Notes: generated by a model not told the origin, from the letters alone. 21,168 bases of DNA from a virus (IMGVR_UViG_3300049215_000816:1-21168); one strand, 5' to 3'; positions 2,247 to 19,184 are shown, counted from the first letter of the stretch. Made by a program: numbers and translations.

Positions 2247-2642
2247 ATGATTTCAGCCGGCTCCGCTCGCAGCATATCGATTCGCGAGGTCCAACGGACG
2301 GTCGCGCACGCCTTCAATCTGACCGTGGCCCAAATGCTCTCGTCCACTCGCGTTCAGCCCATCGCGAGTGCGCGCCAGATTGCGATGTACCTCAGCCGCG
2401 AGGTCGCCGCTCGCCGATCTTCTCCAGTTGACCGCGACGGTTTCCTCGAGATGCCTGCGCCGCCGTCGTTCCCACGTATCGGGATTGCCTTCGCCCGCAA
2501 TCATTCGAGCGTGATGTACGCCTGCCGCAAGGTCCGCCGCCGCCTCCGCGACGACCTCGCCTATGCCCTCCTGATCGATCGCCTCGCCACCGACGTGCGC
2601 GCGCACGCCACCCTCTCACCCGCCACCCAGGAGGCCGCATGA
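2247..2642 (+). CDS. Stand-alone DnaA domain IV-like DNA-binding protein
   Basis: 131 residues. Residues 10-52 match the first half of DnaA domain IV: a helix like IREVQRTVAHAFNL, then LSSTR and the ARQIAMYLSRE helix (42-52), which corresponds to the PRQMAM..AKE helix of bacterial DnaA. Residues 75-97 correspond to the signature IG..F.GRDHTTV.HA..KI, here IGIAFARNHSSVMYACRKV. About 15 residues are inserted between the halves. There is no AAA+ domain, so it cannot bind ATP or load helicase itself. Start 2247 is chosen over the upstream in-frame ATG (2169) because AAGGAGAA at 2233-2240 is well spaced. Its stop overlaps the next start (ATGA). It probably binds DnaA-box-like sites as a regulator or replication factor; this is inference. 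Confidence 0.8.
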   Translation: MISAGSARSISIREVQRTVAHAFNLTVAQMLSSTRVQPIASARQIAMYLSREVAARRSSPVDRDGFLEMPAPPSFPRIGIAFARNHSSVMYACRKVRRRLRDDLAYALLIDRLATDVRAHATLSPATQEAA

Positions 2643-3166
2643 TGGACCCCTATCGATCGCTGACCCGCCGGGTTTTAGCCACCTACGATGCCCGCAGCGG
2701 TATCGCTCCCAAGCGAGGTTTTCCGCGCAAGCCCGCTTCACCCTCTAGCCGCCCCAAGCCAGCGGCTGCGACTACCCCCGCGGTCCCCCGCACTTCCACC
2801 TTCGATCACCTCGCCGACCTGATTGGCAACGACGGCGCGACGCGCCTGGTTGCGGCCTTCGGCGGCACCCGCATCTATATTCCGCAAACCGCCGATCCCG
2901 ATGACGCGCTGAGCGCTTCCATCGGCTTTCCTGCCGCCACCGCGCTCGCCGAGATCTACGGCGGCGACCGTATCGAGATCCCCAATCCGACGCCCCGCCG
3001 CGTCCGTATCGTCGAGCTGCGCGCGAGCGGCCTCAGCATCGATGCGATCGCTCTCGCCCTCCACTGCACCCGCCGCCGCGTCTTCCAGGTGATGGCCGAG
3101 GCGCGCGCCGTCACCCTCCCTCCCGCGAGCGTTACGCGAAGAGTCCGCCATCGACCGGCACGCTGA
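2639..3166 (+). CDS. Mor/C-family-like late or middle transcription activator
   Basis: 175 residues (174 from the alternative ATG at 2642, which is better spaced from AGGAGG at 2629-2634). After a basic, Pro-rich N-terminal tail (1-52) comes a helical segment LADLIG..GATRLVAAF, then GGTRIYIP (75-82), a second GGDRIEIP (108-115), and a C-terminal helix-turn-helix (about 120-153, LRASGLSIDAIALALHCTRR). The GG.x.YIP beta-turn followed by an HTH is characteristic of the Mu Mor/C activator family. Its place at the end of the early operon, before the late genes, suits an activator of the middle/late promoters. Its last 35 bases overlap, tail to tail, the SDR gene on the other strand. The Mor assignment rests on motifs read by eye. 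Confidence 0.7.
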   Translation: MMDPYRSLTRRVLATYDARSGIAPKRGFPRKPASPSSRPKPAAATTPAVPRTSTFDHLADLIGNDGATRLVAAFGGTRIYIPQTADPDDALSASIGFPAATALAEIYGGDRIEIPNPTPRRVRIVELRASGLSIDAIALALHCTRRRVFQVMAEARAVTLPPASVTRRVRHRPAR

Positions 3167-3893
3167 CGCCCGTGATGTATGACGCCTGGTCCGAGCACAG
3201 CCACGCGACCGTCGCCGCGATCTCCCGCGGCGCCGCATAGCGCCGCATCGGCACGATCGCTTCGAAGTCCTTGCGCCCCGGCGCTCCTTCGTTGTTGGCG
3301 ATCCGTTCCATCATCGGCGTGTCCACCGGCCCCGGACACACCGCGTTCACGCGAATTCCCGCCTGCGCGCATTCCATCGCCGCCGATTTGGTCAGGCCCA
3401 CCACCGCATGCTTGCTCGCGACGTAAATCCCGAGGCCCGGAAACCCCTTCAGCCCTGCCACCGACGCGGTGTTCACGATCGCCCCGCCGCCCTGCTTGCG
3501 CATCTGCCGGATCTCGTACTTGAGGCACAGCCACACGCCCTTCACGTTCACTCCCATCACCCGGTCGAAGTTGCGATCGCTGGTGTCGTGCAATTCGATC
3601 ACGTCGCCCTCGATACCGGCGTTGTTGAACGCGCAATCCAGTCGCCCATGCGCGCTGACCACCCGCGCCACTAACGCCTGCACCGCGTTGCCGTCGGTGA
3701 CGTCCACTTGCACGAAGTCGGCCTTGCCCTTCGCCTCGCGAATTAGCGCGACGGTCTCCTCGCCCCCTTTCTGATCGACGTCCGCACACGTGACGATCGC
3801 GCCGTTGGCCGCAAACGCCAACGCGGTCGCGCGCCCGATCCCGCTGCTGCATCCGGTGATTAACGCTGACTTGCCCTCAAGCAGATTTGCCAT
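3132..3893 (-). CDS. SDR-family NAD(P)-dependent oxidoreductase (cargo)
   Basis: 253 residues, the normal length of a classical short-chain dehydrogenase. Rossmann motif TGCSSGIG (13-20), an Asp after beta-2 (D38 in CADVD, which favours NAD over NADP), DV at 64-65, NNAG at 90-93, and the tetrad Asn116, Ser144, Tyr157 and Lys161 (YVASK) are all present; PGPVDTP (187-193) and a C-terminal PVDGG follow. It is predicted to be a cytosolic active enzyme; the substrate cannot be read from sequence. Start supported by AAGGAGT on the - strand, about nine bases upstream. It lies between the phage activator and the lysis module on the opposite strand, the typical placement of a moron or lysogenic cargo gene. 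No phage role is evident. Confidence 0.93.
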   Translation of the reverse strand: MANLLEGKSALITGCSSGIGRATALAFAANGAIVTCADVDQKGGEETVALIREAKGKADFVQVDVTDGNAVQALVARVVSAHGRLDCAFNNAGIEGDVIELHDTSDRNFDRVMGVNVKGVWLCLKYEIRQMRKQGGGAIVNTASVAGLKGFPGLGIYVASKHAVVGLTKSAAMECAQAGIRVNAVCPGPVDTPMMERIANNEGAPGRKDFEAIVPMRRYAAPREIAATVAWLCSDQASYITGVSVPVDGGLFA

Positions 3894-9345: not shown

Positions 9346-10938
9346 ATGACACTTTACGATGCGTACGGCCGGTTAGTGGATACCGCGCGGCTTCGCGACG
9401 AACAGGCGGCGCCGACCATGACCGGCGTGCGGAATATATACTCCGTGATGCATCCGAGCGTGGGGCTGACGCCGGAGAAGCTCGCCGCGGTACTGCGGCA
9501 GGCCGAATTCGGCGACCCTTATCTTTATCTCGAACTGGCCGAGGAAATGGAGGAGAAAGACCTCCATTACCTGGCCGTGCTGGGTACGCGCAAACAGACG
9601 ATTGCCGGACTGCAAATCTCAGTGCGGCCCGCTTCAAGCGAAGCCGCCGACGTGCGTAACGCCGACCTGGTGCGCGATCTGCTCCTCGGCGGAACGCTCG
9701 ACCTCGCGGATACTCTGTTCGACATCCTCGACGCCATCGGCAAGGGTTTTTCCGCGACTGAGATCATCTGGGACACTTCGGGTCGCGAATGGATGCCGGT
9801 GCGGCTCCTGTGGCGCGACCCGCGATGGTTCGCGTTCGATTGCGTAAGCGGCGAACAGTTACTAGTGCGGACGCTCGGCGACGATAGTCAGTACCCGTCC
9901 GCATCGGACGGCGCCGGCGGTAGCCACTTCGAGCGCGCAGGCACTGGCTATCCCGGCGCCAGCCGCGGCCACGGACCCTGCGGATCGGCCCAGAGGGGCA
10001 CCGGTGGCCATTCCGAACAGGGGCACGCCGGTTATCCAGCCGCTCACGCCAGCGAGCTCAATCGATCGAGCCAACGCGGCGGCGGTGGCCATTCCGAACG
10101 GGGGCACGCCGGTTATCCCGGCACTCACGCCAGCGGACCGAGTGGATGGGCCGGCTGGAACGGAGCCTCGCGCGCCTCTGTCGAGACCTTCCTCCAGCCG
10201 ATGACCGCGCCGCTCGAACCCTTCAAATTCATCGTCCATTGCTCGAAAGCCAAATCCGGACTGCCTATTCGCGGCGGCCTCGCGCGCGCGGCCGGCTGGT
10301 CCTACCTCTTCAAGAACTACGTGCTGAAGGACTGGATAACCTTCGCCGAAGTATTCGGCCAACCCTTGCGACTGGGCAAGTACGGCGCGGGCGCAACCGA
10401 AGCCGACAAACAGGCATTGCTGAGCGCCGTCGCGAATATCGGCACCGATGCAGCCGCGATCATCCCCGACTCAATGATCATCGAATTCACCGAGGCGCGC
10501 CAAAGCGGCAGCGCTGAATTGTACGAACGCTTTTGCGAATACCTCGATCGCCAGGTCAGCAAAGCCGTCCTCGGCCAAACCCTCACGACCGAATTGCCGC
10601 GCGGCTCCGGCTCCCGCGCCGCAGCCCAGGTGCATGACGCCGTGCGCCGCGACATCCTCGCGTCCGACGCGCGCCGCCTGGGCGACACCCTCACCCGCGA
10701 TCTGATCAAACCAATCGTGGACCTCAACACCGGACCGCAACGCCGCTACCCAACCGTCGCGCTGGTCCTCCCAAACGATCAAGACGACGAGGAATTCGCC
10801 GGCATCCTCTCACAGCTTATCGATCGCGGTCTGCGCGTTAGTCAAAAGACAGTGCTCGATCGCCTCGACCTACCTGCGACCGCCGTCGACGAAGCCGTTC
10901 TGCATCCGCTAGGGACGCCGGCCGGCGACGAGGATTAA
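9346..10938 (+). CDS. Portal protein, DUF935 (Mu gp29-like), with repeat insertion
   Basis: 530 residues. DUF935 features: N-terminal segment through LTPEKLAAVLRQAEFGDP (41-58), YLELAEEMEEKDLHYLAVLGTRK (61-83), GFSATEIIWD (134-143), LLWRDPRWFAFD (154-165), and after the insertion LEPFKFIVH (290-298), GGLARAAGWSYLFKNY (310-325) and FAEVFGQPLRLGKY (333-346). It forms the dodecameric DNA gate at the capsid vertex. Residues about 184-280 are a Gly/His/Ser-rich insertion between two normally adjacent segments, with three degenerate repeats of 27-28 residues. GGAG six bases upstream supports the ATG. The next gene is the protease; no MuF-type minor head gene follows. Confidence 0.95.
   Translation: MTLYDAYGRLVDTARLRDEQAAPTMTGVRNIYSVMHPSVGLTPEKLAAVLRQAEFGDPYLYLELAEEMEEKDLHYLAVLGTRKQTIAGLQISVRPASSEAADVRNADLVRDLLLGGTLDLADTLFDILDAIGKGFSATEIIWDTSGREWMPVRLLWRDPRWFAFDCVSGEQLLVRTLGDDSQYPSASDGAGGSHFERAGTGYPGASRGHGPCGSAQRGTGGHSEQGHAGYPAAHASELNRSSQRGGGGHSERGHAGYPGTHASGPSGWAGWNGASRASVETFLQPMTAPLEPFKFIVHCSKAKSGLPIRGGLARAAGWSYLFKNYVLKDWITFAEVFGQPLRLGKYGAGATEADKQALLSAVANIGTDAAAIIPDSMIIEFTEARQSGSAELYERFCEYLDRQVSKAVLGQTLTTELPRGSGSRAAAQVHDAVRRDILASDARRLGDTLTRDLIKPIVDLNTGPQRRYPTVALVLPNDQDDEEFAGILSQLIDRGLRVSQKTVLDRLDLPATAVDEAVLHPLGTPAGDED
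9919..10136 (+). repeat. Three degenerate tandem repeats inside the portal gene
   Basis: Repeat units start at 9919, 10003 and 10084 (84- and 81-base periods, both multiples of three). They encode GGSHFERAGTGYPGAS, GGHSEQGHAGYPAAHAS and GGHSERGHAGYPGTHAS. The last two are nearly identical at DNA level (for example GGTGGCCATTCCGAAC in both), pointing to recent duplication that kept the frame. Confidence 0.8.
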
Positions 10939-12334: not shown

Positions 12335-13033
12335 ATGGCGGCATTAACTAATTCGCGCAATACCCCGGAACTCGCCGATGGAGGCCGAACGATGGTGTAT
12401 CCAGTCGAGGCGAACACGAACGTGTACCTGGGCAGTATCGTCGCACTCAATGCTAACGGCAATGCGACACCAGCGTCGAGCGGCGCGAATCTGAAGCTGA
12501 TCGGGCGAGCCGAGATGGTATATGGCGGAATTCCCGGCCAGGACGCGGTAAACAATCCGGGCGCAGCCGCAGCGATCTCGATCGTAGCCCGCCGCGGCGT
12601 GTTCATGTACGCGGTCAACGATGCCTCAATCGCCGCCGCCCAAGTGGGGCAGATGGCCTTCGCGGTGGATGACAACTCGGTCTCGGCGAGCGACGGCAGT
12701 GGAGCGACGGCGGTGGTTGCACAATCGACGACATTCCCGGCGTCGGCATCGGCACAGATCATAAGCCTAGGCCATGAAGCGGTGGTGAAGGTGAAAATAC
12801 ATAGTACGTCTGGCGGCGGAACGGTTTACGTCGAAGGCACTGACTATGTAGTGGACTATCAGGCCGGCCTCGTGATGTTGATTGCCGGTGGAGCAATCGC
12901 GGCTGCCGCGACTGTTTTCGTCGATTACAACTGGGGCGCGCCGACGCGAAGCGTGGCCGGTCGAATCGCCGGGCTCGACCCGAGCGGTCAAGTGTGGGTC
13001 GATTTCTGGCACCAATCCGTAGCCGCATTCTAG
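12335..13033 (+). CDS. Capsid cement/decoration protein with inserted beta module
   Basis: 232 residues. The start NSRNTPELADGGRTMVYPVEA, split here as NSRNTPELADG then MVYPVEAN, with VYLGSIVALNANGNA, ARRGVF, QVGQMAFAVDDNSVS and the ending AGRIAGLDPSGQVWVDF, fits the small cement protein that lies between protease and capsid genes in Mu-like phages. Those are usually about 130-140 residues. The excess is accounted for by a module at about 141-201 (from IISLGHEAVV through VYVEGTDYVVDY and IAGGAIAAAATVFVDYNW), which is also found in the gp37-like protein and the tail sheath. AAGGATG before the ATG gives a good start. It should bind the outer capsid surface. Confidence 0.82.
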   Translation: MAALTNSRNTPELADGGRTMVYPVEANTNVYLGSIVALNANGNATPASSGANLKLIGRAEMVYGGIPGQDAVNNPGAAAAISIVARRGVFMYAVNDASIAAAQVGQMAFAVDDNSVSASDGSGATAVVAQSTTFPASASAQIISLGHEAVVKVKIHSTSGGGTVYVEGTDYVVDYQAGLVMLIAGGAIAAAATVFVDYNWGAPTRSVAGRIAGLDPSGQVWVDFWHQSVAAF

Positions 13034-13158
13034 GATACTCCGTCCACGGCATTTGCCGCCCCGCAGACAACCCGAAGGCCTTATGACTATTCGCGTCACC
13101 GCCTTAGCGAAGCTGTTTTCGGCGTGAACGTGACGACACCAACTCAAAGCAGGGACCA

Positions 13159-14115
13159 ATGGAAATAACGACTGCCAATCTAACTGCATTGTTCACGGGG
13201 TTCGACGTAATCTTCCAGCGCGGCTTTGACAAGCCGCCATCCTATTACGAGAAGATCGCAACCGTTGTGCGATCGGCTTCTCGTCAAACTACATACCCGT
13301 GGCTAGGTCGAACCACGAAATTTCGTGAGTGGCTGGACGAGCGTGTAATCCAGGCGCTCGAAGCGCACAGCTATACGATCACGAACAAGGATTTCGAAGA
13401 CACCATCAGCATCAGCCGCAACGACATCGAAGATGACAACTACGGTGTGTACGAGCCGGTGATCGAGCAGCTCGGCTGGGATACGAAGGTCCATCCGGAC
13501 TCACTACTGTTCTCGATGATCAAGAACGCAGTGACGACACCCTCGAGCGTACTAAGTTTCGATGGGCAACCGTTCTTCTCCGCGACTCATCCAGTAGGGC
13601 CCCTGGGGGCGGCGAACGACGCGCGGGACACGGTAGCGTCAAATGTAAACAGCTCGGGTTCCGGACCGTATTGGTATCTGCTCGATGCGTCGCGAGCGGT
13701 GCGCCCGTTCATTTTTCAGCTCCGGCGCGAATACGCGATGACGCGTATGAACACGCTGACCGACGAGGCCGTATTTACACGGCGCGAGTTTCGCTTCGGG
13801 GTGGACGGGCGAGCCAACACGGGGGTGGGTCTCTGGCAACTTGCATACGCCAGCAACACCGATCTGAGCGTACCCTCGAACTATGGCGCGGCGCGCGCGG
13901 CGATGCGGTCGATAAAGACTGACGCGGGGTTACCGTTTGGCGCACTGACCAGTCCGAACGACATCTACCTGCTGGTGCCGCCGGCGCTCGAGGAAGTCGG
14001 AGCGCAATTGTTACATTCGGACTTTATGGTGGGTATCGGCGCAAGCTCGAGCGTGACGACGGGAAATATCTGGAAGAGCACCGCTACGCTGATCGTGAGT
14101 GAGTATTTGTCCTAA
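13159..14115 (+). CDS. Major capsid protein (Mu gpT-like)
   Basis: 318 residues, close to Mu T. It opens TTANLTALFTGFDVIFQRGF, with YPWLGRTTKFREWLDERVIQ (46-65), the NKDFEDTISISRNDIEDDNYG region (76-96), SFDGQPFFSATHP (132-144) and PPALEEVGAQLL (274-285), all familiar from the Mu-like major head subunit (HK97-fold) family. It follows the cement gene as expected. AGGGA lies a few bases before the ATG. It forms the icosahedral shell. Confidence 0.95.
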   Translation: MEITTANLTALFTGFDVIFQRGFDKPPSYYEKIATVVRSASRQTTYPWLGRTTKFREWLDERVIQALEAHSYTITNKDFEDTISISRNDIEDDNYGVYEPVIEQLGWDTKVHPDSLLFSMIKNAVTTPSSVLSFDGQPFFSATHPVGPLGAANDARDTVASNVNSSGSGPYWYLLDASRAVRPFIFQLRREYAMTRMNTLTDEAVFTRREFRFGVDGRANTGVGLWQLAYASNTDLSVPSNYGAARAAMRSIKTDAGLPFGALTSPNDIYLLVPPALEEVGAQLLHSDFMVGIGASSSVTTGNIWKSTATLIVSEYLS

Positions 14116-14226
14116 GGCGCCGGCCCTGACCGCGCGATACAACGGCCTCCAGGTAAACCGCCATTAACGGCGCATTCAGCCCTGATCACTCGCAAGCATC
14201 GAATCATCGAAACAGGTGGACCAGAC

Positions 14227-14685
14227 GTGCACTACGCATCGCCGAACGACATGATAGCCAGATATCCGAATCGAGATCTGGTGCAACTGAGTAATGAAGA
14301 CCCGACGCAAACGACGGTGAATCTGACAACTCTGGGCCAGGCGCTCGACGATGCGTCAGCGGAAATTGACGGCTATATCGAGAGCCGCTTCGTCCTGCCG
14401 CTCAGCGACCCACCGACCGTTCTCAACCGGATCGCATGCGATATCGCAATGTACCGGCTGCAATCGCTGCGACCGCTGCACGACCTCGCCGACCCGCGAA
14501 AACGCTACGAGGACGCGGTTGAACTGCTGGTTCGAGTGGCGCGCGGAGAAGTCACCCTCGGGCTCGGAACAGACGATGCAGAACCGCCGGCGGCTCCGGG
14601 TTCAGTCGTGACCGAAGCAGGCGGTCAGGCGGGCGGCGAAGTACCACAGCGGATTTTCAGTCGGGGAACGCTCAAGAGTTATTGA
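14227..14685 (+). CDS. Head-tail connector, DUF1320 (Mu gp36-like)
   Basis: 152 residues with a GTG start preceded by AGGTGG (14213-14218). YASPNDMIARYPNRDLVQLS followed by LGQALDDASAEIDGYIESRF (36-55) and DIAMYRLQSLRP.HDLADPRKRYEDAVELL is the DUF1320/gp36 signature. Residues beyond 110 are a Gly/Pro-rich tail ending in a short conserved-looking RIFSRGTLKSY. This family completes the head at the neck. It lies directly after the capsid gene, as in Mu. Confidence 0.9.
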   Translation: MHYASPNDMIARYPNRDLVQLSNEDPTQTTVNLTTLGQALDDASAEIDGYIESRFVLPLSDPPTVLNRIACDIAMYRLQSLRPLHDLADPRKRYEDAVELLVRVARGEVTLGLGTDDAEPPAAPGSVVTEAGGQAGGEVPQRIFSRGTLKSY

Positions 14686-14723
14686 CCAGTCAAGTAACCA
14701 TTTAACTCATAGAGGTAGCAGTC

Positions 14724-14957
14724 ATGCGCGTAAAGTTTATTTGCACACAGGCTCAGAAGAAAGACAACTGGCATCCCGGACGGCTGGTACATAGTGCGCG
14801 ATTAGTGCCGGTAGTCGATGATTCGGCGGAGGCTCGCGAGTACTTCTCGGAACCGCCGGCGGGCGAGCTGAATCTCGACGCACTCGCCTCGGAGCATTTC
14901 AAGGTGGGGCGCACTTACACCGTATATATCGAAGAACTCGCGGCAGAATCCCGCTAA
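14724..14957 (+). CDS. Small structural-region protein, unknown
   Basis: 77 residues with a good ribosome binding site (GAGGTAG, about 14712-14718). It begins MRVKFICTQ and ends FKVGRTYTVYIEELA, with EPPAGELNL before it. The form 'F..PsG.l.l..F..G..Y.v.i' is familiar from small beta-rich proteins in Mu-like head-tail gene clusters, but I cannot name a family with confidence. It sits between the gp36- and gp37-like genes on the same strand. Confidence 0.65.
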   Translation: MRVKFICTQAQKKDNWHPGRLVHSARLVPVVDDSAEAREYFSEPPAGELNLDALASEHFKVGRTYTVYIEELAAESR

Positions 14958-15000
14958 TAAATCGAAGGGAAGGCCGAGTAGATCGCACCAGGATACGGCA

Positions 15001-15837
15001 ATGGGAGCAACACTCGATAGTCCGTGGGTCGGACAGGAATTTACGCCACCGAGTCCGCTCGATATCGGGACGATCGAAACGGCATTGGTCAACCAGTTAG
15101 TCGCACAGATCAGCGAGATCGAAATAGTTCATTTTCCAGACAAGCCCGAAGCGTATCGAATGACGCACCGCATTGGTTCGGCGCTGGTGCGCTATGAAGG
15201 TGCGGAATACGGCGAGGTAATCGATATCGCGGCGATTGTGCAGGAACGTACGCTCAAGTTTGAAGTTACATTGATGATGCGAGACCTGGGTTGGAGCTTC
15301 GGAGGGCCGGCGAGTGGTACGGACCCGGGAGCGTACGCGATGATCGAGGCCGTGCGCGGCGCGCTAACCGGGTTTCGAGTTCCAGGATGTGACAGGACGT
15401 ATCCGCTTCGTGAGCGGTTTATCAAACGCGACAAGCAGGGTGGCGTCTGGGTTTACGCGATTAGCTTCGCGTTGCGGACGGCGGCGGTGGAAGCCTCGGC
15501 GCCAAACAATTACCCGCTGTTCCTGCTTGGCATCGCCCAAGAACAAGGTGGCGTCACTTCAGTTACTGTCGCCCCGGCTTCATACCAATTCAATCCGAGC
15601 GACCAGATCAATCTTTCACATGGAAATATCTCGGCGCTATTGATTACGAATCCGGACAATGGCGCCGCATACATCAGTGGGGACGATTACACACTCGATG
15701 CGGTCAACGGGATTGTCCTGCGAAATCCAGCTGGTGCGATTGATCCGGGCACGCTGGTTAACGCCGGATTCACCTACGGGGAGGTGGTGACCGCGATCGC
15801 AGACGGGGGTGGCATTCCGACTGCACCAACCAACTGA
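15001..15837 (+). CDS. Tail completion protein, DUF1834 (Mu gp37-like) plus beta module
   Basis: 278 residues; the family is usually near 180-200. Residues 20-165 show the DUF1834 pattern: IGTIETALVNQLVAQI, HFPDKPEAYRMTH, GSALVRYEGAEYG, VQERTLKFEVTLMMRDLGW, MIEAVRGALTGFRVPGC and GGVWVYAISFALR. Residues 201-261 form an added C-terminal module (INLSHGNIS, TNPDNGAAYISGDDYTLDA, then GAIDPG and FTYG), clearly related to a segment of the tail sheath encoded next and to the cement protein. The base family finishes the tail-head junction; the extra module's role is unknown. The start follows AGGA at good distance. Its TGA is three bases before a tiny ORF. Confidence 0.88.
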   Translation: MGATLDSPWVGQEFTPPSPLDIGTIETALVNQLVAQISEIEIVHFPDKPEAYRMTHRIGSALVRYEGAEYGEVIDIAAIVQERTLKFEVTLMMRDLGWSFGGPASGTDPGAYAMIEAVRGALTGFRVPGCDRTYPLRERFIKRDKQGGVWVYAISFALRTAAVEASAPNNYPLFLLGIAQEQGGVTSVTVAPASYQFNPSDQINLSHGNISALLITNPDNGAAYISGDDYTLDAVNGIVLRNPAGAIDPGTLVNAGFTYGEVVTAIADGGGIPTAPTN

Positions 15838-15840
15838 GTA

Positions 15841-15924
15841 ATGGCTCTCAAGGCGTATGCGATAACCACTGGTGCCGCCACTCCTGCGATCGGCAGTGGA
15901 TCAATCCAGAGGTCAATCGAATAA
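15841..15924 (+). CDS. Tiny ORF after the gp37-like gene, doubtful
   Basis: 27 residues (MALKAYAITTGAATPAIGSG then SIQRSIE) starting three bases after the upstream stop (TGA-GTA-ATG). Mu has a small gene (gp38) at this place, but I see no similarity to it. The remaining 105 bases to the sheath gene hold only an A-run and the sheath ribosome binding site. Confidence 0.22.
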   Translation: MALKAYAITTGAATPAIGSGSIQRSIE

Positions 15925-16029
15925 CCGAAGACAACCGCCGCACAGCAAAAAAAGATATCCCGGAATAAAAGCTCGACCGTCGGGAGCTAGCTCAATAGCA
16001 CGCAAAACGCCCGCAGAGGTGAAGTACAA

Positions 16030-17784
16030 ATGCCAGCATCCTTCCTGCACGGAGTAGAAGTAATAGAGCTCGTCACGGGCCCGGCACCGATAACTGTGGT
16101 CAAATCGTCGGTAATCGGACTGGTAGGAACGGCGCCTTGTTGGGCAGTATCAGCAGGGACAACCGCGGCGGGAATAAACGCGCCAACACTGGTGAGCTCG
16201 CCGCAAGACGCCGTGCAATTTGGCCCGGCGGTGCAAGGATATACGATCCCCTACGCACTGAGGGCAATTCTTGGACAAGGCGCGGGGCAGGCGGTCGTAG
16301 TCAATGTCTTCAACCTCAGCAAGCACACCAGCGATATAGTCGCGTCACCAACATTCAGCGCGGCCGGCGCAATCAATCTCGGCCACATGGGTGTTACGAA
16401 CCTGTCGGTGATGCCGACGACGACGGCACCAGTCACAGCGGAGTCGCATAGCTTCGGCGGCACCCCGGCAACGATACAACTGGCGCACGGCAACGTGCAG
16501 GGTTCGTCGATAGTACTAACGAGTAATCCCATCGGCACCACCTATGTCCAGGAAACGGACTATCTGGCGGACAGCCGTACAGGCTTGATAACTCGAGTAA
16601 CGGGAGGGGCAATCGGCGCCACCGCGGCGGTATTGGCAAACTATACTTACTATTCGGGGACGGCATATAGCGCGGTTCATGATTACGCCACCGATTCAGT
16701 CAACGGGATCGTTACGCTCATCGCCGGCAGTACCATAGCGGCGGGGTCAACGGTGGCCGTCTCATTCAGTTACGCCGACCCGACTAAAGTGCAGGACTCA
16801 GACATAATCGGGGCCGTGACCGGTTCCGGATATTCAGGCTTGCAGGCTTTTCTGACGACTTACGGCACCATGGGCTTCTTCCCGAAATTGATGCTAGCGC
16901 CCGGTTACTCGCAAAATGGCGATGTCGCCAGCGCATTGCAGGCTACCGCCGCCACGCTGCGGGGAATGGCGCTCATCGATTCGCCGCCAAACACTTCTGC
17001 CGCAACGGCAATCGCGAACCGCGGGCTACCGGGTAATGCGTTCGACACGAGTTCGACACGCGCGATCTTGTGCTATCCGCAAGAGACCTTCTATGACGAC
17101 GGGCTAGTCCCGACAGGCGTGACCCTAAACGGCACCAGCCCGATACAGTTGGTCGCGAACCAAACAGCAGTAGGGCCATACTCACCATGGGTGGCTGGTG
17201 CGATAGCGTTGAAAGACCTTAACCAAGGCTACTGGTGGTCGCCCTCCAATACTCAAATAAACGGAATCCTCGGGCCTGATGTGACGCTCTACGCATCGCT
17301 ACTGGACGCGGCATCCGATGTTAACAACCTCAACTCGGCCGGGATCGTAACTGTGTTTAATGCGTTCGGCACCGGGCTCCGCGTTTGGGGTAACCGTTCC
17401 GCTGGATACCCAACCGTAACCACCCCGGACAACTTCATCAATGTGCGCCGAACGATGGATGTAATTGAAGAGTCAGTTGAATTGTCGATGCTGCAATTCA
17501 TCGATAAGCCAATCAGCAACGCTCTGATCACGGCAATCCTGGCAAGCGTAAACTCATTTATCCGAACGTTGATCCAGCGCGGAGCGCTCGTGGCGGGCTC
17601 TGCGAGTTACAGTCCCGCAGAGAATCCTCCCAACCAAGTCGCCGCGGGGCAACTAGTATTCGATATCGACGTCATGCCGCCGCCGCCCGCTGAGCGTCTG
17701 AGCTTCAACGTTTACATTGACAGTACACTGCTGACGCAACTCGGCACCTCAAGCCCGTTGACGAGTACGGCACTGACTGCATAG
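16030..17784 (+). CDS. FI: Contractile tail sheath protein (P2 FI / Mu L-type)
   Basis: 584 residues. N-terminal HGVEVIELVTGPAPITVVKS (7-26) and VIGLVGTAP (28-36) are the universal sheath start. The C-terminal half shows NRGLPGNAFDTSS, GPYSPWVAGAIALKD, GYWWSPSN.QINGILGPD, and the end region FINVRRTMDVIEESVELSM through NAFIRTL-like NSFIRTLIQRGAL, with a conserved FDIDVMPPPPAERLSFNVYI. Residues about 147-249 insert two beta modules in tandem (IQLAHGNVQ..TYVQETDYLADSRTG..; HDYATDSVNG..STVAVSFSYADP) before the normal DIIGAV. Sheath subunits contract to drive the tube into the host. AGAGGTGA before the ATG supports the start. Confidence 0.95.
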   Translation: MPASFLHGVEVIELVTGPAPITVVKSSVIGLVGTAPCWAVSAGTTAAGINAPTLVSSPQDAVQFGPAVQGYTIPYALRAILGQGAGQAVVVNVFNLSKHTSDIVASPTFSAAGAINLGHMGVTNLSVMPTTTAPVTAESHSFGGTPATIQLAHGNVQGSSIVLTSNPIGTTYVQETDYLADSRTGLITRVTGGAIGATAAVLANYTYYSGTAYSAVHDYATDSVNGIVTLIAGSTIAAGSTVAVSFSYADPTKVQDSDIIGAVTGSGYSGLQAFLTTYGTMGFFPKLMLAPGYSQNGDVASALQATAATLRGMALIDSPPNTSAATAIANRGLPGNAFDTSSTRAILCYPQETFYDDGLVPTGVTLNGTSPIQLVANQTAVGPYSPWVAGAIALKDLNQGYWWSPSNTQINGILGPDVTLYASLLDAASDVNNLNSAGIVTVFNAFGTGLRVWGNRSAGYPTVTTPDNFINVRRTMDVIEESVELSMLQFIDKPISNALITAILASVNSFIRTLIQRGALVAGSASYSPAENPPNQVAAGQLVFDIDVMPPPPAERLSFNVYIDSTLLTQLGTSSPLTSTALTA

Positions 17785-18869: not shown

Positions 18870-18899
18870 CGGCACGATCGGCTTAGCGTGGAGCGATAT

Positions 18900-19184
18900 A
18901 TGAGCAGACGCGTATACGCGGGAAATCTCAGTTTCGAGATGAATGACTTACTATTGCGAGAAACCTTCGCACGAGTCGGGGGAGTGGAGGCGGCCGAAGT
19001 AGTCAAAGACCGGTGGACAGGAATATCGCGAGGCTTTGGCTTCGTGGAAATGATAACGATCGAGGATGCTGAAACCGCGGTGAATGAATTGAACGGCATC
19101 GAAGTAATGGGACGAATGTTGCGAGTCGCACTAGCGAAGCCTCGTTGGGCCGCGGCCACAGTCGAGAGCCGCAGCCGCCAATAA
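18900..19184 (+). CDS. RRM-domain RNA-binding protein
   Basis: 94 residues from the ATG at 18900 (GGAG at 18890-18893, six-base spacer); a GTG at 18888 is less likely. It is one complete RRM: RNP2 RVYAGNL (4-10), RNP1 RGFGFVEM (44-51), and the rest of the beta-alpha-beta-beta-alpha-beta fold ending RMLRVALAKPR. The RNA-stacking aromatics Tyr6, Phe46 and Phe48 are kept, so it should bind single-stranded RNA. It resembles the small single-RRM proteins of bacteria, and is not a usual phage tail gene. It starts 30 bases after the frameshifted chaperone stop and ends 8 bases before the tape measure, so it is transcribed with the tail genes. Confidence 0.92.
   Translation: MSRRVYAGNLSFEMNDLLLRETFARVGGVEAAEVVKDRWTGISRGFGFVEMITIEDAETAVNELNGIEVMGRMLRVALAKPRWAAATVESRSRQ

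Follow-up and report, generated by a model that had tools for sequence, protein, structure and literature searches.

A small module shared by the cement, gp37-like and tail sheath proteins of a soil phage, and nested within its own homologue in the sheath

Introduction

Why should one small segment recur on the capsid, the neck and the contractile tail of a single phage? The question is raised by IMGVR_UViG_3300049215_000816:1-21168, a virus record of 21,168 bases that was analysed whole and is called the window below. Mu-like head genes (portal, protease, cement, gpT capsid, gp36 and gp37) are joined in it to P2-like contractile tail genes (sheath, tube and GpU), and the setting of the hosts is that of soil bacteria. 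An earlier note on this DNA had read four segments as the same unit, one in the cement protein, one in the gp37-like protein and two in the tail sheath protein, and had proposed internal copying of a perhaps Ig-like surface domain with a common partner. Ig-like domains are known on varied phage proteins and are common; whether they serve as glue for the particle or in adhesion to the host is unsettled.

Results

The three proteins concerned are encoded on the plus strand. The cement (decoration) protein of 232 residues (12335..13033) matches phrog_1731 (E 3e-23), and its model folds like the capsid decoration chains of XM1, T1, FCWL1 and phiCD508 (Z 8.6–9.1). Its gene sits directly upstream of that of the gpT-like major capsid protein (13159..14115, plus strand; PF10124, E 1e-92), which is without the module and served as the reference for the phage tree. 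The gp37-like protein of 278 residues (15001..15837) carries the Gp37 domain PF09646 at residues 30–174 (E 1e-30), and its function as a tail terminator is assigned by analogy with Mu. The tail sheath protein of 584 residues (16030..17784) has the core and C-terminal domains of contractile sheaths (PF04984 and PF17482), and matches the fold of the pyocin sheath (Z 34.6).

Other genes of the window have features of their own. The portal protein (9346-10938, plus strand) contains, at about residues 190–280, an insert rich in Gly, Ser and His in which GGHSE.GHAGYP is repeated imperfectly; the Portal_Mu match on this protein falls into two stretches. Downstream of the tail assembly chaperone gene, a 98-residue RNA-recognition-motif protein (18888-19184, plus strand; PF00076, E 7e-18) is encoded within the tail operon, which is unusual for a phage tail region. 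At 2639-3893, a plus-strand gene with a Mor-like activator match overlaps the end of a minus-strand short-chain dehydrogenase gene, an unexpected metabolic gene for the early region.

The four segments were found where the earlier note had placed them. Their local alignments, each scored against 2000 shuffles, gave z values of 9.4–15.6, and for each segment pair the observed score was reached by none of the 2000 shuffles. When the sheath copy was searched against the whole record with tblastn, exactly three other places were returned (E 7e-10, 4e-8 and 1e-4, that of 4e-8 being the gp37 module). Profiles of the cement, gp37, inner-sheath and outer-sheath modules, built with relatives added, matched in all six pairs of positions, with hhalign probabilities of 98.4–99.6% over 71–76 columns. 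The shuffle scores and profile comparisons thus establish one homologous module common to the cement, gp37-like and sheath proteins. The outer sheath module is the best partner of every other copy, with hhalign scores of 107–124 against 76–97 otherwise.

The motif described earlier is indeed shared, and the start of the unit has to be moved: homology begins about 20 residues earlier, with an extra strand before IxLxH, so that the unit comprises about 80 residues. It consists of a strand ending in F, the IxLxHxNV motif, a VVVT strand, the stretch GTTYVxGTDYxxDxxxG, a Gly-rich turn and a final VxVxYxY strand. With these limits the cement module spans residues 128–203 (12716..12943, plus strand) and the gp37 module residues 186–263 (15556..15789, plus strand), on the C-terminal side of the Gp37 body.

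Most module positions share about 30–37% mean identity. Similarity at the DNA level is weak, and rises clearly above shuffles only between the gp37 module and the second half of the outer sheath module (z 7.3) and between that half and the inner sheath module (z 6.1); the copies are therefore not recent. Recent gene conversion was discarded on the same ground, and also because the copies group by protein and not by genome.

Across the module segment, each of the three proteins matches both the NCBIfam family tail_tube_6XGR and PHROG 807, described as a major tail protein with Ig-like domain. The domain 2 region of NF052337 (positions 73–174 of 245) is matched by the three window proteins with E values of 1e-11, 4e-8 and 7e-13; at 44.8, 32.9 and 48.5 bits they miss the whole-family cut-off of 60 bits, the match being to the domain only. 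Over the segment, Pfam gave no match at E ≤ 1, and the Ig, FN3 and Big families are absent. Searching PDB sequences with the module profile returned short or weak matches only, phmmer with the cement or gp37-like protein returned no relevant match, and the cement module, run by tblastn against the phage collection, found no match.

Fold comparison was made with the cement copy, whose module is modelled with a pLDDT of 80–91 (AF2). Cement residues 122–202 match residues 100–200 of the YSD1 tail tube (6xgr) with Z 7.0 and an rmsd of 2.5 over 77 residues; further matches are the baseplate of phi812 (Z 9.7), also the phi812 neck, the necks of chi (7.9) and T5 (7.7), and residues 92–171 of the JBD30 chain 8rk3_f (7.4), values of 7–8 being not decisive alone for a small β-sandwich. 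The JBD30 chain is presumably gp44, given the matching residue ranges. The major tail protein of that phage has an Ig-like decoration domain at residues 88–175 (PMC11445458). The fold match of the cement model bears out the Ig-like reading, and by profile and model the module is a predicted small Ig-like β-sandwich homologous to domain 2 of the YSD1 tail tube. As described in the YSD1 work, this domain has a DE-variant Ig-like fold, latches adjacent subunits, girds the ring and stabilises the hexameric ring (PMC7385642; PMC8718954).

The second sheath segment, which had been taken for a shortened copy at residues 209–249, is something else. It is the second half of an ancestral sheath module split by a complete inserted one. 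The outer module comprises residues 101–128 (16330..16413) and 209–253 (16654..16788), and the inner module, residues 129–208 (16414..16653), lies in its loop; all are on the plus strand. Alignment with single-copy relatives shows that the residues aligned to AINLGHMGV continue directly into TTYVxGTDY there, and are separated from it by a complete module in the window and its close relatives. When the single-copy module was cut into two separate HMM profiles, the first half scored a median of 39 bits at residues 101–128 against 13 for the inner half, and the second half 56 bits at residues 209–253 against 37, in 24 of 24 sheaths each. Profile searching of related sheaths gave consecutive matches to states 1–39, 5–83 and 41–83. 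The idea of a short copy was dropped on these three grounds, and the sheath clearly exemplifies a domain that has been inserted into a homologue of itself.

The AlphaFold models agree with this division. The sheath model has a pLDDT of 85–95 per block around the modules, with predicted strands at 148–150, 162–165, 178–181, 186–189 and 200–208 in the inner module, and at 114–116 and 122–128, then 219–222, 227–230 and 243–249, in the outer one. Those of the cement module are at 142–144, 150–156, 171–174, 179–182 and 193–200. Compared by strand order, spacing and profiles, in place of direct superposition, the predicted cement, inner sheath and outer sheath modules agree in strand order and spacing.

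The excess length of the cement protein is the module, as had been supposed: module-free cement proteins, about 60–70% identical, are without exactly that stretch, which in the window precedes the last strands of the cement fold. Among the 83 rows of the capsid tree, the cement module is present in 34 and absent in 33. In the relative L045 about 80 codons have been cleanly deleted in frame, which removed the module and left a remainder 91% identical to the cement protein of L043. The module is dispensable in cement, since it was cleanly lost in L045 and in a group of 53 rows. The cement insert of the window is bordered on its left by a 14-bp tandem repeat, GAGCGACGGCAGTG, in 2.1 copies (12688-12716), close to the deletion joint of L045. 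Another relative (L019:5126-5835) has the module on the plus strand, whereas the N-terminal part of cement, which lies just before the capsid gene, is on the minus strand. Inverted repeats, looked for there as a sign of an invertible switch, were not found and that idea was abandoned; the arrangement is possibly an assembly chimera.

The gp37-like protein likewise owes its excess length to the module, as distant gp37 proteins of 165–194 residues stop without it. In the main clade, every gp37 complete through the module region has the module, counting two split copies. Most of the module is parted from gp37 by an in-frame stop in one of these (L160:6146-6976) and by a frame change in the other (L019:7359-8302), which reflects either sequencing error or ongoing module loss. 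The gp37 modules are the most variable: they average 50% identity, compared with 63% in the remainder of gp37.

Relatives were gathered by capsid protein and by sheath protein; they are prophages of Binataceae and allied uncultured bacteria, and the metagenome-assembled genomes that contain them bear the titles Candidatus Binataceae, Candidatus Binatus, Deltaproteobacteria or Proteobacteria. The outer module is kept in every sheath complete over the region; it is degenerate in distant sheaths (about 40% identity), and visible by alignment only in L116 and L117. On the outgroup-rooted tree, in which the truncated contig L128 was scored otherwise, the cement module is older than the split of L193 and was lost in the 53-row group and in L045, the gp37 copy was gained after that split, and the nested sheath copy is restricted to one clade of 33 rows. 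The sheath copy is thus of early date, as is the cement copy, of which at least two losses occurred; the gp37 and nested copies came later. That the module is natural to sheaths, and was gained or lost in cement and gp37, is upheld by the relatives and the rooted tree. A sheath carrying an Ig-like domain is ordinary, as extra sheath domains are often Ig-like and positioned away from the tube (PMC9230969). A simple order from sheath to gp37 to cement is rejected, because L193 has the module in cement and sheath and none in gp37. L193:1-7663 is a distantly related prophage (45% capsid identity), the second of this kind in one host assembly.

Seven host assemblies and four virus records were searched for the module outside the sheath, gp37 and cement genes; no confident match was found, and a weak one (E 0.09) lies in a frame of 709 residues. 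Relatives of the module exist elsewhere, in chi-like tail tubes, in a fusion with the capsid-maturation protease of Rctr41k, in other sheaths, and in L191, a protein with weak tail-fibre matches.

The module tree, built on about 85 alignment columns, places each module position in one clade, support for the cement clade being weak when L193 and L146 are added. Internal copying, proposed in the earlier note, is neither established nor refuted by it: a single internal family is not rejected by the AU test (p 0.25), and the alternatives are equally unrejected. One of these is independent recruitment, in which the proteins drew their modules, each at its own time, from a pool common to phages, with no special functional link between the copies. 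Some modules of other phages, from tail tubes and Rctr41k, do fall with weak support among the cement and inner sheath copies, the gains and losses are stepwise, and no AU test rejects this origin. Forcing the main positions into one clade, the test with p 0.25 above, is, however, likewise compatible with the data, and the earliest-branching gp37 copy, that of L146, is closest to a sheath module (58%). This last similarity hints at internal copying, and does so for gp37 only. Independent recruitment is held tentatively, at somewhat less than an even chance.

Median dN/dS is 0.23, 0.31 and 0.19 for the cement, gp37 and sheath modules, and 0.22, 0.30 and 0.13 for their respective host domains; the modules are under purifying selection, like the host domains.

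Discussion

On the best reading, which is given a probability of about 0.5, the module is an insert used repeatedly on the outside of self-assembling shell proteins, where it clamps adjacent subunits together at the surface. It draws on the role of the YSD1 domain, on the occurrence in shell-forming proteins only, and on purifying selection like that of the host domains. Placed on the capsid cement, the neck (tail terminator) ring and the sheath of the phage lineage, the module would reach over the adjacent subunit as is described for YSD1 domain 2, adding contact and stabilising the assembled shell. The second module, in the loop of the first, would give the sheath a larger outer layer. In Mu, gp37 is the hexameric tail terminator, and its C-terminus touches the last sheath ring (PMC11915804). 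The terminator module may accordingly pack against the sheath modules, as it stands on the side that contacts the top sheath ring in Mu. The exposed position of the modules, their clamping and this packing are inferred.

Dispensability in cement suits an accessory role in adhesion no less than one in clamping, and recruitment solely to virion proteins is also consistent with surface adhesion. The main rival is that the modules are low-affinity adhesins on head, neck and sheath, which make encounters more frequent by binding weakly to glycans or proteins on the host surface or in the soil matrix. Weak binding of surface carbohydrates by virion Ig-like domains has been proposed (as cited in PMC9230969 and PMC8718954), and the related module of L191 is in a protein resembling, weakly, a tail fibre. 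Fibres would be expected to carry such an adhesin, but none of the other genes of the wholly searched phages and genomes has a confident match; diversifying selection is not seen in the dN/dS values; and the best-described homologue, YSD1 domain 2, is structural. Restriction to three genes together with purifying selection favours a structural clamp somewhat better than an adhesin, and adhesion is considered rather unlikely.

The closeness of every profile to the outer sheath module, the retention of both gp37 and sheath copies in every complete case of the main clade, and the contact of Mu gp37 with the top sheath ring would also fit contact between modules, those of the terminator and top sheath rings, and of cement trimers, binding each other in an interlocked outer layer and keeping their sequence as an interface. 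Most positions have nevertheless diverged to the low mean identity given above, cement is far from the sheath, and its copy is lost while the others stay. Such contact is judged improbable. Still less credence is given to a shared recognition module that binds itself or a common virion or host partner and builds a continuous outer lattice, which nesting would generally enlarge. The observation of the earlier note is confirmed, and its interpretation partly supported.

The lineage offers natural pairs with and without the module, such as the cement proteins of L043 and L045, as well as the module in three assemblies; matched proteins are thus at hand for comparing stability and binding.

Several known systems bear a likeness to the present one. 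The 2006 review of Fraser et al. reportedly describes phage Ig-like domains on many different virion proteins; those belong to the I-set, FN3 and Big_2 families, whereas the present module matches no such Pfam family. Mu gp37 is alike in its Gp37 domain and neighbouring genes, but ends in a C-terminal β-hairpin where a module of about 80 residues here follows the body. The extra Ig-like domains of contractile sheaths of types 2 and 3 are likewise β-sandwiches on a conserved core and away from the tube (PMC9230969); in the passages of that paper found by keyword, neither a nested module nor one shared with cement or terminator appears. The decoration domain of JBD30 gp44 resembles the cement module by fold match, and differs in belonging to the tail tube of a siphophage.

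One module on the cement, terminator and sheath of the same particle, or nested within its homologue, did not appear in the passages found by keyword, and the occurrence on three assemblies with nesting is taken as new to that extent. Among the closest systems is YSD1_22, the chi-like tail tube (PDB 6XGR), whose domain 2 is akin in profile (NF052337, PHROG 807) and in the fold of the whole module, and is likewise an insert in a self-assembling virion protein. It occurs there as one copy in a non-contractile tail tube, in contrast to the cement, terminator and contractile sheath with a nested copy described here. To the YSD1 authors, domain 2 was a distinguishing mark of chi and its relatives (PMC7385642). 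Members of its family, seen before in chi-like tail tubes, are now recognised in cement, terminator, sheath and capsid-protease proteins as well.
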